Below, piece after piece: positions 22,143 to 57,313 of a DNA stretch of 64,000 nucleotides. This DNA comes from Kondoa malvinella. Taxonomy: Eukaryota > Basidiomycota > Agaricostilbomycetes > Agaricostilbales > Kondoaceae. Within the stretch, counting starts at the first letter, position 1. Each line of letters opens with the position of its first letter. The translations under genes were made by a program, and so were the position numbers. The stretch is from the NCBI GenBank assembly GCA_039545315.1, contig BCIM01000001.1, positions 420,805-484,804 on the forward strand, written 5' to 3'. The notes below the pieces were generated by a model. It was given only the letters and a program-made list of their open reading frames with translations. It ran no database searches and was not told where the DNA came from.

Positions 22143-23282
22143 CGACGTTCGAAAGCAACTTGTCAACATCTCTTGACGCGAACAGTCATGCGCTTTTGAG
22201 CAAGCCGTACTACAAGAACGAGATCGTACGAGATGGTCTACAGCGTTGGCTAGTCAGCTGAAGCCTCGACGAGCACCGTTATTGTCAATCATGCGAAAGT
22301 CGCTGTCAATATAAGATATCTCTCATCTGGCCTTCTAAAGCTCGCGGAACAGCAAGGCCCTTCTCTTGACATGCTCGTCAGTCTCTATGATCGATTACAA
22401 GACCTCTCGAGCTTTATTGGCCGAGCTAGTCATCGACAATCTTCGGGACGACTAGACATCGACTAAATGTCGACTAAAACGCTCGTCGACTGAATATCAT
22501 TCACCTCACTCGCTAAAGACTTCTGGATAGCAACATCCTCCTAGTGTACTCCTCAGCAATGCCTATGCCAAGTCTCGCTTGGCCACGAGCTGATCTGAGC
22601 GACCTCGTGTCGAAACTCGGAAAACTACCATTGCGCCCAACTTTTGATTTCAACCCTTTGTTTCAACACCCTTACTTTCGACCCTTATTTTGTTACCGAC
22701 TCAAATCCCTTACCTGGAGCTTCGAAAATAGCAAGGCTGTCGTCCAGAGATGTATAGCAGTACCTACTGCACTGCTCGACATTGTCAGATGCAATTGCGA
22801 AGAGTCGATGCGACGCATTTTGTCCATATTGCTCTGAAGCGCTCTCATCAATATGGCTCAAATCGCGCAGGGAATCCGTGTAACAAGAAGAGAAATATCT
22901 GAGGCACTCGTTGATACTTGCACTGGCCGCCGAACCGCAAACACTCGTTTATGTCAGACTGAATGACTTCAGACAAATCTTGGTCGACTAGTCTTAGCGT
23001 CTTCGCGCTGACGTCGATAACAGCATTAATGGGACCTCTTCATGTGCCATGGTCAGGCTTGCTCTACCTCGCGAGATCTTCAGCAAGCAGACGCCAAACA
23101 TGATCCCAAACCAATTGAAGACGCTTTCCAACGATGTTCTTCTGTCCTCCCAAGCCGCCCAAATAGCAAGAGCGTTGCCAGAATTCATATCAGAAGCTAC
23201 ATGTTGCATTACAAGTGCATTGGACTCTATTCTCGAAACTTTATGTTAAAGAATCTTCTAAAAAATGTGCTCCGAGCACATT
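22143..23282 (+). repeat. Dispersed repeat copy A (~1.14 kb), inverted partner of copy B
   Basis: This segment matches the reverse complement of 46636-47778 over its whole length, at about 90% by eye with small indels. The left edge is near GACGTTCGAAAGCAAC. The right edge falls at a 19-base palindrome, AATGTGCTCCGAGCACATT (23264-23282). Inside, 22447-22492 holds several TCGACT/GACTA units in a row. At 22559-22837 an open frame starts MPMPSLAWPRADLSDL and is preserved in part in copy B. Another, at 23100-23249, reads SSQAAQIARALPEFISEA. These look like remains of a once-coding element. No terminal inverted repeats, target duplication, reverse transcriptase or transposase motif was found, so the class is unknown. 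Confidence 0.8.
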
Positions 23283-46635: not shown

Positions 46636-47778
46636 AATGTGCTCTGAGCACATTTTTCAAAGGATTGTTTGACATCGAGTTGCAAGAAAAGAGTCCGGTG
46701 CGTTTGTAATTCAGTATGTAGCTTCTGATACAAATTATAACAACGCTCTTGCTATTTGAGCGGCATCGAAGGACACAATAACATCGTTGGGAAGCGTCTT
46801 CAAGGTTCGAGATCATGTTTGGCGCCTACTTGCTGAAGCTTTTGCAAGACAGGACAAGCCTGATCATAGCGCATGAAGAGATTCGATTGTTGCTGTTATC
46901 GATGTCAGCTCGAAGACGCTAAGACTGTTCGACCAAGATTTGTCTAAAGTCATTCAATCTGACAAACGAAGTATTTGCGATTCGGCGGTCAGTGCAAGTA
47001 CAAAAGAGGGCCTCAGATAGTTCTCTTCATATTTCAGGTGTTCCCTCCGCGATTTGAGCCATATTGATGAGAGCACTTCTGAGCAATATGGACAAAATGT
47101 GTCGCAGCGACTCTTCGCAATTCGATCTGAAAGTCTCGAGCAGTGCAGTAGGTACTGCTATACATCTCTGGACGAGAGCCTTGCTATTTTCGAAGCTTCA
47201 GGTAAGGGATTTGAGTCGGTAACAAAATAAGGGTCGAAAGTAAGGGTGTTGAAACAAAGGGTTGAAATCAAAAGTTGGGCGCAATGGTAGTTTTCCGAGT
47301 TTCGACATGAGGTCGCTCAGATCAGCTCGTAGCCAAGCGAGACTTGACATAGGCATTGCTGAGGAGTACACTAGGAGGATGTTGCTATTCAGAAGTCTTT
47401 AGCGAGCGAGGTGAATGATATTCAGTCGACAAGCGTTTTAGTCAATATTTAGTCGATGTCTAGTCGGCCCGAAAATTGTCGATGACTAGCTCGGCCAATA
47501 AAGCTCGAGAGGTCTTGTAATCAATCATAGAGACTGTCGAGCATGTCAAGAGAAGGGCCTTGCTGTTCCGCGAGCTTTAGAAGGCCAGATGAGAGATATC
47601 TTGTATTGACAGTGACTTTCGCATGATTGACAATAACGGTGCTCGTCGAAGCTTCAGCTGACTAGCCAACGCTGCAGGGCACTTCGTTACGACGTCGTTC
47701 TTGTAGTATATGGATTGCTCAGAAGCGCATGACTGTTCGCGTCAAGAAGAGATGTTGACAAGTTGCTCTCAAACGTCC
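46636..47778 (-). repeat. Dispersed repeat copy B (~1.14 kb), inverted partner of copy A
   Basis: The reverse complement matches 22143-23282 end to end. The palindromic edge reads AATGTGCTCTGAGCACATT at 46636-46654, one base different in the centre. The other edge is near 47778. Compared with A, the frame that starts MPMSSLAWLRADLSDL carries a TGA where A has TGG (after RLKSLT), while A has a TGA where B reads on (LLRSALINMAQIAE). Each copy is therefore broken at a different point. A further indel of three bases (an extra TCT) lies near the outer edge. Both copies look non-functional as coding units. Confidence 0.8.
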
Positions 47779-52234: not shown

Positions 52235-54926
52235 TCACGACTCTTCGTCCGGCTCTTGTTTGGCCATCCACGGCGAAGAGAAAAGATTCGAGCGACCAGC
52301 CAACATGGCCATTGGCGTCGCAAAGAGGTTGGTACCTTCATAATTGTCATACATGGAGGACTGCTGCGGGACCAGACCGAGAGACTTGCTAAAGTCTGGA
52401 TGAGCAGGTGAAGACAAGAGATACTGTCCAGGCGAAGAGGGAGGGCCTGGAATGCCTGAGAGAAGCATCAGCATAGGCAACGAACCACAAACAGATTTAC
52501 TCACCTGCAAGGGAAGACTGCGCAGGAGTAGCCATTCCTCTCAACTTGCTAAACAATTCCGCTCCATCCAGCTCCGGCGAGTTCCCATTCAGATAAGTAG
52601 ATCTCTCAGCCGACTGATCCACCTGGTCCACATCAAACAGGTCCTTCGCATTACCCCTCATTGGCGTATCGAAATGGGAAGCGGGTGGAGGTGAAGACAG
52701 AACATGCGCCAACATTCTCGCTCGTTTCGCTGGTCGATCGTCTTCTTCCTCTATAATCGTCGTATCTCCACTCGTGTCAAAGCTACCGTCGTCGATTACT
52801 TCTGCCCTCTTGCGAGTCATAGGCTTCTCTGGCGAATTAGGTGCAGAAGAGCTACCAGTCTTCAATGCCAATAACTGTAAAGCAGCTTCCTCCTGATGAC
52901 CTGAAACGACACGGGTTGGCGCAGGACGACGAGCTTGAGCAGCGAGGAAGCGACGAGCGTCATTGTCTGCTGAGCTGCCTTCCAGAATTTCTCGTATAGC
53001 ATGCTGAGCGGCAGTGTCTGCATCTTGATTGAACGCAATAGCTGGTGCGGGCGGAGCAGAAGTAGGACGCAGAGGTACATGTTGAACATTGAGAGAAGGA
53101 CCGGCTGAATAGCTGACTGGCAGTGAGCTGTGGAAGTAGTCGTAGGAATTGACGGCTGGTTGCGAAGACGACTGGTGATGATCCGAATGCACAGCTGTCT
53201 GAGCGGTGAAGGCATCGTAGTGATGCTCTTGCGGCTGGAAATGATAGGCACGGTTGCTTGTAAGCTGATCTAGAGTTGGCAAGGGCGCTAATTCGCTCGG
53301 CGGGAAAGGATGAGCGGAAGGCTTAGTACTAAAGACTGGACCAGGGAATTGCATCCATGGCGCTTGCGCTTGCGCTTGCGCTTGCGCTTGTGGCTGCCAA
53401 TGTTGCTGTTGCGGATGCGAGGTAAAATAGGAGACTGGCGGTGGGACATTCGCGCGATCTGGTGCAGGCATGGAAGCACTTCGTATCATTGGAGGAGGTG
53501 CAAGAGATTGGACTTGAGGTGCTGGCCACGACTGGGCTAGTAGATCCTGACTGCTTGATGTCGATCTAGCAGCTTCGAGCAGAATAGAGGGCGAATGAGC
53601 TGGAAGAAAAGGCGATACCGAGCGTTGACGGTTTGAGCCGCCAGACTTGTTGGAAGACACGCTGGTCGAACGCGACATGCTTCGACTCGGTCCAGCTTCA
53701 GGCGGCATCAACAAGCTGGCATCTGTTGCTGAATGCGCAGACCCTTCATCCGCCTCTGCTTCTTCCTTGACTTTCTTGCCTTTCTTTTCAGCTCTCGCTT
53801 TCCTTGCCCACCTTCGCTTCGCCTCTAGTGTTCTTTCGCGTCGTTCATCATCGTTTTGTGGTCGATCAGTCACTATCAAAGAAACCGTCAGAAAGTTTGG
53901 TAGAAGGAACCCTACTACTGACCATTGTCCCAGCGCGTCTTACGAGGCTGAAGCGCTAAAGGAATCTCGTGCTTATCCTGCAAATGCCTTCGCCAAATCG
54001 ATCGAGCATGTTTACCGCTGTACTTCTTGTCGCAATACGGACAAGGAAAGGTGAGCTTGTTGGTGACTGGATCGGTGATGGGTTCCGGCTGAATCTCGTT
54101 GACTGTTTTTGGCAAATCTTCGGTCAAGGCTGGATCTACCTGATCATTGTTTGCAGAAGTGCTTGAGTCTTGCAGATTGTTACTGGACGGATGCTCGGAT
54201 ACAGATGGATCTGTTGCGTTGGCTCGATACTGGCTCGCAGGTAATGTTGATGTCGAAGCCAGCGGTAGGGTGCTTTGAGCATGGGAGAGTCGTGCTGGCG
54301 AGCGACTGCTGGAAGAACCGAGCGAACCAGCTGCTATTGGCCAAGATTGTGAGGCGAAGAACGGAAAGTTGAATGGTTGTGTAGCGGCGAGGTAATTGTA
54401 TGCAGCGGGTTCCAGCAACGGATGGCAATTCATCATCGATTATTCGGTGAGGCAAATGCAGCGGTTGATTATATCGTGTAGGCGGAAAGAGCGTGTTGTT
54501 GGCGCAGAATAACGGTATTGCGAACAGAGCCATCAAGCGAAACAAAACATGGGTGCAGATGACGGTACCGTTGAAATGACAATACAAACAGATCGGCATG
54601 ACAGGCCAAGACGATAAAGCGTGTAGAGATACATAGAAAGAAGCAGAGAAGGTAGAGAGAGAAGGTAAATGAGAGGAAGCGCAAGTCAGCAATTGACAAG
54701 TTCAGATGCATGAAATGGACTGACGGGTCACTGAGGCTTTGCCTTTGCCTTTGGCTGATGTCGTCTTCTTCCCCTTGCTGCTCGAGACCTTCTGGCTTGC
54801 TTCAGAAGCTGTAGGAGACTCTTCATGCAATGTCGAACTTGTGTCAACAACACCATTGCCAGAACTGTGACTGTCTTCTGGAGCTGCTGCCTGGGCCAGT
54901 CTGCCTCTAGCCTTGGCTGCTGCCAT
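52235..54926 (-). CDS. C2H2 transcription factor with an AG-free 391-base intron
   Basis: Predicted exons on -: from 54926 (MAAAKARGRLAQAAAPEDSH, a Lys/Ser-rich arm) to 54725; a 391-base intron 54334-54724; then GSLGSSSSRSPARLSHAQS to the finger FPCPYCDKKYSGKHARSIWR with RHLQDKH, which is C-x2-C ... H-x4-H; then TDRPQNDDERRERTLEAKRR with WARKARAEKKGKKVKEE, a basic DNA-contact or nuclear-signal helix. The rest is Pro/Gln/Ser-rich and ends SPWMAKQEPDEES. The predicted junction is in frame with either half of a TAGCAG acceptor. An alternative start inside the intron (MMNCHPLLEPAAYN, 54436) has an open frame into the same exon, so two isoforms are possible. The function is nuclear regulation by inference only. 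Confidence 0.6.
53361..53390. repeat. Hexanucleotide repeat (CGCTTG) x5
   Basis: Five copies of CGCTTG within the C2H2 gene. Read on - they encode alternating Ala-Gln. A likely length-variable microsatellite. Confidence 0.8.
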
Positions 54927-55037: not shown

Positions 55038-56766
55038 CTATACTCCGCTGTTTGAGGACCATTCCGCGTCCAGATCAACCTTTTGCATGTTCAGAGTGTG
55101 GTCGTGTGTTTCGTCAGAGCAATGCGGGTTGAAATCGTCAGCTTGTGCACCGCAAATCTCTGCTTCCTGCTTGTAGTGACGCTGCAACGCTTCAGCGCGC
55201 TTGAATGGACGCCCGCAAGTATCGCAGCGGAACTTGACTACGTTCGAGTGAAGGTCGTTGTGTCTTTTGAGATCATCTAAGAAATCATCATCAGCCAAAA
55301 ATCAAAATATCGCTTCTGATCACTTACGAGCTCGAGCGAAAGCTTTACCGCAACCCGGGAAGGTGCAAGCGTAGGGCCTCTCTCCGTTGTGGGCCCTTAT
55401 ATGTCCGCGTAGGTTGTAGGCGCGCGTAAAAGTTTCGTTGCAGAAGGGGCAGGCGAATTTCGCTTCAGCTCCAGGCTTGCGACGTGCGATAGCAGCTTGT
55501 TTAGTAGCGGAAGCTAGTAAAGGCATCAGTATCGCGTCTGAACAAAGCTCGAAGCAAACTCACTGGTTTGGCTGTTCCAGTGCAGTGGCTCAGCAGCTAC
55601 ATTCATAGTAGCACGTCGTCCGGTAGTGTGAGTGCGAGTAGCAGGCTGAGAAGGAGGGTAAGAGGATCGGCGACGCTCTTCATGCTCTGCAGCTCGAGCT
55701 GATCTGGTCTGCGGGAGTTCAGGCTCGGAGGTGCCGATGGAATGCTGGTCAGCATATTCATAGTGCGCAAAGACTGGCTGAGAATCGTAAGTAGGCTGCC
55801 AGCGCGGATCAGCGACAAGCTGCAGAGAAAAAACGCGCAGGCTTACATCATAGTAGCCGAATTGAGGAAGACCGTGCCAGTGACGAGGACCACTTGCCGT
55901 AGCTGTATAGCCGTCGAGGGGCGATGGAAGAGGTGCTTCTTGCATAGAGGGGATTTGCATGCCTGGAACAATCATGTTTGGGTTGACGCTGCTATGGAAG
56001 AAAGATGGGCGGTCCATGTGAGAGCCGACAGAGCGCGAGAAGTCGATCTGAGCAGGGTTCTTCCAGTAAGAAGGCGCTTGCTAAAGCAATGTCAGTCATC
56101 ATTCTGACCAGTTCAAAGAAGACATACTGGAGTTGGATCCATATCTACTAGAGTCTGACCGCCCAGGAAGTGATCAAAGTCCGAGTTGGTAGAAGATGCA
56201 TCGCTACCGTCGCCAATGCGCATTGCCGATGCTTGGAATTCGGGAACAGAAGTAGCAGGGCTCATCATGCTGCCAGTGACTGGAAGAGACCAAGAGCTTT
56301 CGACAGAGCTGGTGTCGGAACAATCGCCAATGGAGCGACTGCGTTGACGGTGGAAGTCCATCTTGCTGAACATGTCAGGAAAGCCTTGGAGAGGTTGGCT
56401 TGCTTCTGGTCCCATGAGAGGGGATTCGATGGGTGAGAAATCGGAAGAACGAGCGCCGGAGCTTTCGCTGTCGCTGTCGTATGCCTGATAGCCGCGATAG
56501 TGAAGCTGGAGAGCCAACGCATCATTGACTGAGCTGGGAGTAGCGTCGTGTCCGTTGACGGAAGCTTCGATTTGAGCAAGAGTTTCGGCAGCGTTGCTAT
56601 GAGGAGTTGCGCTGCTGTTGGTCCAGATGGGTGGGAGAATGGCGTGAGAGGGAAAGTTCCGAGGCGCCTTCTGATCCATAGAGTTGGCTCGAGAGTTTGG
56701 AGGAGATTGAGCACGCTCAGAACCGTCTTGAAGAGAAGACGCGGCGGATTGAGAGATCGAAGTCAT
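55038..56766 (-). CDS. Crz1-like C2H2 transcription factor
   Basis: Start at the ATG of 56766 (MTSISQSAASSLQ). About 400 residues of Ser/Pro-rich regulatory sequence follow, with SP and PxI-like segments (PLPSPLDGY, SPIESP). Three C-terminal fingers are spread over two exons: FACPFCNETFTRAYNLRGHI with RAHNGERPYACTFPGCGKAF, ARA spliced to DLKRHNDLHS, and FRCDTCGRPFKRAEALQRHY with KQEAEIC. The order NLRGHIRAH, RHNDLH, and ALQRHYKxE is that of Crz1/Prz1, the calcineurin-activated factor for calcium and stress responses. The acidic end is short. A calcineurin docking site (PxIxIT) was looked for and not clearly found. The next gene upstream on - starts 111 bases after the stop. Confidence 0.75.
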
Positions 56767-57313
56767 TTGTCAGCCGACAGATCTGGTTGAAGAAGAGAAG
56801 GAGCGCAATATCTGAATTTGTAGTGTTGGCAGACAAAGACGTATTTGGCGGTGCTCGTCAAGATGTAAGGCGTTTGCGGAGGACTTTTGTGATTAAGATG
56901 AATGAAGACGCAAAAATGCTGTGCATTTTACACCGCATTTTTAGCCCGCGGTCGAACGAAAAGAAGACAGCCAAAAACGAGGCTGGCCGGTCTCTGCGAC
57001 GTGCTATGGGTAGCCCTGGAGCATTTCGATACTGTACATACGAGCCGCAAACTGAAAACATTGGAGCAAAGAAGCATCTTCAGGCAGTGCAAACTGTTCA
57101 GATAGAAGAACGCCAAAAGCAGTGCAAGTCCTTTGGAAGTGGTCACGTTGCTGGGCAGTGCAAAGCGGTAGACCGTGCATTATCGTTGAGGCGCACGTTC
57201 AAGAAGCGGTCCAGGAGTTCGACAGAATGCAGTTGCGAGGCAGAGCAGAATGCTGGACGGATGGATGCGGCATGTTTTGATGATGACATGAATAAATAGG
57301 ACTGCTGAGGCAT
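56767..57313. other. Promoter region of the Crz1-like gene
   Basis: About 550 bases between the Crz1-like start and the stop of the LAM-like gene. The + strand is open for 200 codons (56697-57299) but starts inside the Crz1-like coding region, has no ATG at its edge and no domain. I read it as promoter and 3' flank. Confidence 0.5.

Follow-up and report, generated by a model that had tools for sequence, protein, structure and literature searches.

The window analysed here is a stretch of 64,000 nucleotides from Kondoa malvinella. On its minus strand lies a gene predicted to encode a protein with a C2H2-like zinc finger in three exons, the first of which is separated from the second by a putative intron of 391 bases (Table 1). 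Further upstream on the same strand, at 55038-56769 (minus), are frames resembling another C2H2 zinc-finger gene; their last stop lies only 111 bases before the putative start codon, ATG 54926.

Table 1. Features of the predicted zinc-finger gene, in window coordinates
Feature	Position	Strand	Remarks
Putative exon 1	54725..54926	-	ATG 54926-54924; 67 codons plus 1 base
5' splice site GTCAGT	54719..54724	-	Same hexamer as the donor of the homology-supported intron 2
Putative intron 1	54334..54724	-	391 bases
Distal branch point motif CTGAC	54685..54689	-	Predicted branch A at 54686
Pyrimidine tract	54636..54685	-	88% C+T, directly downstream of branch A
AG exclusion zone	54336..54719	-	384 bases without AG
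Acceptor TAG, first AG past the zone	54334..54336	-	In frame with exon 1 (C plus CA gives Pro)
NAGNAG tandem acceptor (TAGCAG), second half	54331..54333	-	Candidate, from sequence only
Rival proximal branch motif CTCAC	54349..54353	-	A (54350) 16 bases from intron end
Rival start codon ATG	54434..54436	-	Within putative intron 1; its frame continues into exon 2; ORF 54439-53915
Exon 2, C2H2-like finger	53923..54333	-	Finger below Pfam cut-offs
Intron 2	53873..53922	-	50 bases, GTCAGT...CTGAC...TAG; ordinary comparator
Exon 3 to stop	52497..53872	-	Gene model

Coding evidence

Half of the conserved finger region is encoded in exon 2. Eight protein homologues were found, among them proteins of Ceraceosorus bombacis, C. 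guamensis, Parajaminaea phylloscopi and Puccinia striiformis, in a search that scored only the 7997 candidates sharing the most words with the query. Their BLASTP alignments lie around the finger, span 11-28% of the query length and fall outside the intron 1 junction. Splicing of intron 2 joins TRWDN to VTDRPQ, and the product is colinear with TRWDxDANRPK of the homologues; intron 2 is thus supported by homology. One homologue, P0008 (jgi source), contains unmatched sequence where intron 2 of the present gene lies, as if that intron had been read through in the gene call; the position of the intron may thus be conserved.

Codon use in exon 1 is coding-like. In the frame needed, exon 1 scores 0.121 under a codon model trained on 38 long frames, for which the median of 201-base coding windows is 0.093, the 95th percentile of random sequence 0.094 and the 99th percentile of wrong frames 0.080. 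One reverse-strand frame of exon 1 scores 0.095. By hexamers, exon 1 (0.062) is similar to 54436-54336 (0.064), the segment of the putative intron that follows the rival start codon; the codon score of this segment, 0.067, is ambiguous and falls between coding and random values. The remainder of the putative intron, 54724-54437, has a negative coding score in all three sense frames, and coding ancestry of the intron as a whole was rejected on these scores. Left unspliced, the frame of exon 1 runs into a stop 7 codons past the donor.

The AG-free zone

From 54719 down to 54336 the minus strand contains no AG over 384 bases, which is to say that the plus strand contains no CT. The first-pass annotation had described this void as reaching to an acceptor at 54335-54334, and had read the first AG beyond it as in frame with the upstream exon, the split codon giving Pro; both observations are borne out. 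Its expectation of about 20 or more AGs lies between two baselines: the contig rate predicts approximately 27 (0.0716 per base over 200 kb of the same contig), and the zone's own composition predicts 11.0. None of 200,000 composition shuffles of the zone lacked AG. GA (10 observed, 11.0 expected) and CT (42 observed, 41.6 expected) are present on the minus strand at normal levels, so the loss of AG is specific to this one dinucleotide and to one strand.

The AG-to-AG gap at the zone measures 386 bases; the next longest in the window, both strands considered, is 186. We extended the comparison to both strands of 313,996 bases, comprising the window and 250 kb of the same genome (1.6% of 19.1 Mb). 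This sample holds 22 gaps of at least 120 bases, headed by that of the zone and followed by one of 193. When the sample was cut into 384-base windows at steps of 32 (n = 19,578, of which 24 overlap the zone), the minimum among the 19,554 clear of the zone was 7 AGs, reached by two windows, and 18 had fewer than 10. The 39 real windows away from the zone that matched its composition had a mean of 12.5 AGs and a minimum of 7. Among the 22 long gaps, the zone alone combines a GTNNG[TCA] donor with a CTRAY motif at the usual spacing, donors having been sought from 5 bases upstream of the start of each AG-free run to about 59 bases downstream of it.

Two other features of the sample may be recorded here. 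The second-longest AG-free run, that of the 193-base gap, lies past the end of the window (minus strand, 77428-77620 in window-joined coordinates). A CTGAC stands near its start and a GTAAGA immediately precedes the run, but the distance from GTAAGA to the A of CTGAC, only about 15 bases, is not the usual spacing. Within the window, an inverted repeat of 718 bases (22228-22945 and 46970-47687, 94% complementary, arms 24,024 bases apart) has in both of its arms a stretch of about 120 bases free of AG.

Several other origins of the zone were considered and rejected. Antisense coding is ruled out as the cause of the plus-strand CT void, since no plus-strand stop-to-stop frame of at least 60 amino acids overlaps 54373-54758. 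A repeat or transposon origin was discarded because the whole intron matches only itself in the 19.1-Mb genome (E up to 10, in a search that passes over simple repeats and very common words). Within the window, no known RNA family matched at gathering score and no tRNA was found. Twin (nested) and recursive introns are defined by an internal acceptor AG; the putative intron has no internal AG past its donor, which rules them out.

Intron grammar and branch motifs

By joining open frames we obtained a heuristic, sequence-based set of 108 introns, which probably includes false introns. Their median length is 55.5 bases, with quartiles of 48 and 74. Counted from the donor, the branch A has a median index of 37 (quartiles 34-42), and a median of 14.5 bases separates it from the intron end; for most fungi, a published survey gives about 13-25 bases as the typical value of the latter distance (PMC2483917). 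GTGAGT is the commonest donor of the set (17 introns) and GTCAGT, the hexamer at the start of putative intron 1, the second (10). The intron ends in AAG or GAG in 38 of the 108 cases, and in 70 of the 108 the chosen acceptor is the first AG past the branch, counted from about 6 bases on.

Counted per donor, CTGAC and CTGAT are about three- to fourfold more frequent than at three sets of control sites. CTCAC is enriched about twofold, with 26 matches against 12-16 in the three controls, which have more sites; CTGAC follows donors 72 times. In 103 introns defined by such motifs, the stretch from donor to branch motif contains 159 AGs where 144 would be expected by composition. AG is not avoided there, so a stretch that does avoid it suggests a position past the branch point. 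From branch to end these ordinary introns average 54% pyrimidine.

Putative intron 1 contains a single CTRAY, the CTGAC at 54689-54685. Its A stands at index 38 from the donor, a standard spacing for this genome, and 352 bases before the last intron base. Among 320 pairs of GTNNGT and CTRAY, the present one included, the first AG at 6 or more bases past the branch A lies at a median distance of 13. The present pair has the largest value, 352, and the next is 84, while the maximum over 298 control pairs at non-GT sites was 132. Pyrimidines make up 88% of the 50 bases that begin at +1 of the branch A, a proportion matched by 49 of 627,796 overlapping 50-base windows, the tract's own windows included. 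Of the 10.2 AGs that local composition would predict downstream of the distal branch A, all of them missing, 10.0 belong beyond the first 50 bases and 8.7 beyond the first 100. The locus thus displays three sequence features of a distant-branch-point (AGEZ) intron, with a 384-base zone between predicted splice ends, a branch consensus near the 5' end and an adjoining pyrimidine tract. Counting against distal branching is the CTCAC near the acceptor, whose A, at 16 bases, has the position expected of an ordinary branch point.

These results agree with the first-pass annotation in placing the best CTGAC near the donor, about 350 bases from the acceptor, and in its contrast with other introns of 45-65 bases, the neighbouring intron 2 having 50. 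Its reading of the void as the exclusion zone of a distant branch point gains support from the standard donor-branch spacing, from the tract that abuts the motif, and from the fact that ordinary intron bodies show no such loss of AG.

The zone is weakly structured. Of 100 dinucleotide shuffles, 98 fold at least equally well (z +1.7), and the effective end-to-end distance, counted from 8 bases past the branch A, is 51, against 27 +/- 10 in 60 shuffles. With folding weaker than in shuffles and a longer effective distance, hairpin bridging of the yeast type is not seen, and a structure-bridged acceptor was ruled out on these values. Searches of the genome gave family matches to the second-step factors Slu7 and Prp18 and to U2 snRNA, as well as to Cactin, Tls1 and Sde2, which help branch-distant splicing in Schizosaccharomyces pombe; Sde2 passes the cut-off of its family, but with a weak match (E 1.5e-5). 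Together these matches permit the model of a distant branch point without proving it.

Interpretation and comparison with known systems

We consider it probable, at roughly two chances in three, that the segment 54724-54334 is removed as a U2-type spliceosomal intron by way of a distant branch point. U1 would bind GTCAGT and U2 would bind CTGAC 38 bases downstream, as in an ordinary 50-base intron, the U2 step being aided by the unusually strong pyrimidine tract immediately after the motif. With no AG at the usual distance, the second step would take the first AG available, 352 bases on, at 54335-54334 or at its NAGNAG partner. Any new AG arising inside the zone would capture the acceptor and cause a frameshift, a stop or an altered protein, and AGs would consequently be purged. 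Such an intron could have originated by an acceptor ratchet, in which each loss of an AG moves the acceptor to the next AG downstream and leaves an AG-free wake. A slow second step might, as a guess, provide a control point for the zinc-finger gene. A linear search for the first AG, rather than folding, is the simplest reading of how the gap would be spanned. Whether the locus represents, in full, a vertebrate-style distant-branch-point intron in a short-intron fungus, with a linear search over about 350 weakly structured bases, is in our judgement evenly balanced.

The gene may alternatively start at ATG 54436, with its promoter in the zone. The tract would then be a CT-rich promoter element, exon 1 would be separate from the gene and the AG void would be unrelated to splicing. 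CT-rich tracts are frequent in fungal promoters, and the ATG is in frame and open into exon 2; the segment that it opens has an intermediate codon score and hexamers much like those of exon 1, and the gap to the upstream frame becomes 601 bases, less cramped than 111. We regard this start as unlikely, however, since it leaves the zero count of AG unexplained: every one of the windows clear of the zone holds at least 7, whatever promoters were sampled among them. It also takes no account of an exon 1 that is coding-like by codons and whose donor is a common one in the phase required, and exon 2, with 32 AGs in 411 bases, is unlike 54436-54336. Promoter and intron might both exist, with a long isoform made by way of the distant branch point and a short one from 54436. 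This arrangement would fit the intermediate coding signal of 54436-54336 as well as the AG void, but an internal transcription start is without positive evidence, and we think it very unlikely. That the AG-free run arose by chance in a pyrimidine-rich stretch is hardly credible; composition does remove more than half of the deficit (from about 27 to 11), but none of the shuffles lacks AG, and the composition-matched real windows all have at least 7.

A further reading accepts the intron and places its branch point at the proximal CTCAC (A 54350), the distal CTGAC being a bystander. The proximal motif lies at an ordinary distance from the acceptor, belongs to a class enriched about twofold over control sites, and would respect the 30-base limit observed in an S. 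pombe reporter (PMC9508853). On the other hand, branching there would leave the AG void without a cause, as introns here show no shortage of AG ahead of their branch motifs, and the strongest pyrimidine tract adjoins the distal motif instead. CTCAC is also the weaker motif, in matches as in enrichment. This reading seems to us quite unlikely. The S. pombe limit is nonetheless the strongest argument against distal branching, and there are three ways out of it: either this fungus differs, or the intron is inefficiently spliced and its retention serves as a control, or the proximal motif is used.

If the distant-branch-point intron is spliced as predicted, a fungal spliceosome can reach across 352 bases from the branch point to its 3' splice site with little help from folding, in contrast to the short limit measured by the S. 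pombe reporter. The gene would then offer a natural single-gene substrate for asking whether first-AG scanning, U2AF or Sde2, Cactin and Tls1 set that limit, and would suggest an independent origin of the vertebrate layout. Known from vertebrates, this layout appears here far outside the normal range of K. malvinella introns. That it may be new for fungi is suggested by keyword searches of the literature only: among the titles listed, in part, on AG exclusion zones and branch-point spacing, no fungal zone of such length was found.

Fungal precedents involve much shorter distances. In S. cerevisiae, hairpins between branch and acceptor are described as able to lower the effective distance (PMC12350175); unlike such structured segments, the stretch in K. 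malvinella is weakly structured. In an S. pombe tho5 reporter, branch-acceptor spacings of at least 30 bases led to poor splicing even in the wild type, whereas Sde2 helps the natural intron 2 of rap1 to be spliced at a spacing of 39; by the same account about 40 of about 5250 S. pombe introns have a spacing of at least 30, and RNA folding can help (PMC9508853). The intron described here resembles those branch-distant introns, which depend on Sde2, Cay1 and Tls1, in being fungal and in having its predicted 3' splice site beyond normal reach, and all three helper families were matched in the genome. It differs in that its predicted spacing of 352 bases is about ten times the 30-39 bases reported there, with less folding than in shuffles.

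The closest likenesses are to vertebrate introns. The intron upstream of human PTB exon 11 is reported to have a 381-base AG exclusion zone, with UACUGAC predicted as the branch point at -351, and mutation of that branch point abolished exon inclusion in a reporter (PMC1431707). The corresponding values here are a 384-base zone and a CTGAC whose A lies 352 bases before the last intron base, although the human case was tested by mutation and the fungal intron is known from its sequence alone. In OGDH intron 4a of vertebrates, a dBP/megaPPT intron, the arrangement is described as enforcing mutually exclusive exons, with branch points below a proposed steric limit (PMC7969005). In K. malvinella, by contrast, 38 bases is a normal donor-branch spacing and no sign of an alternative exon was seen at the locus. 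In other respects the resemblance is close: the human OGDH branch adenines lie 25-41 bases from the 5' splice site and are followed by large pyrimidine tracts and an extended AG exclusion zone, whose canonical size in a fish is given as about 280 bases (PMC7969005), while in the fungal intron the predicted branch A lies 38 bases from the donor and is followed by a 50-mer of 88% pyrimidine and the 384-base zone.
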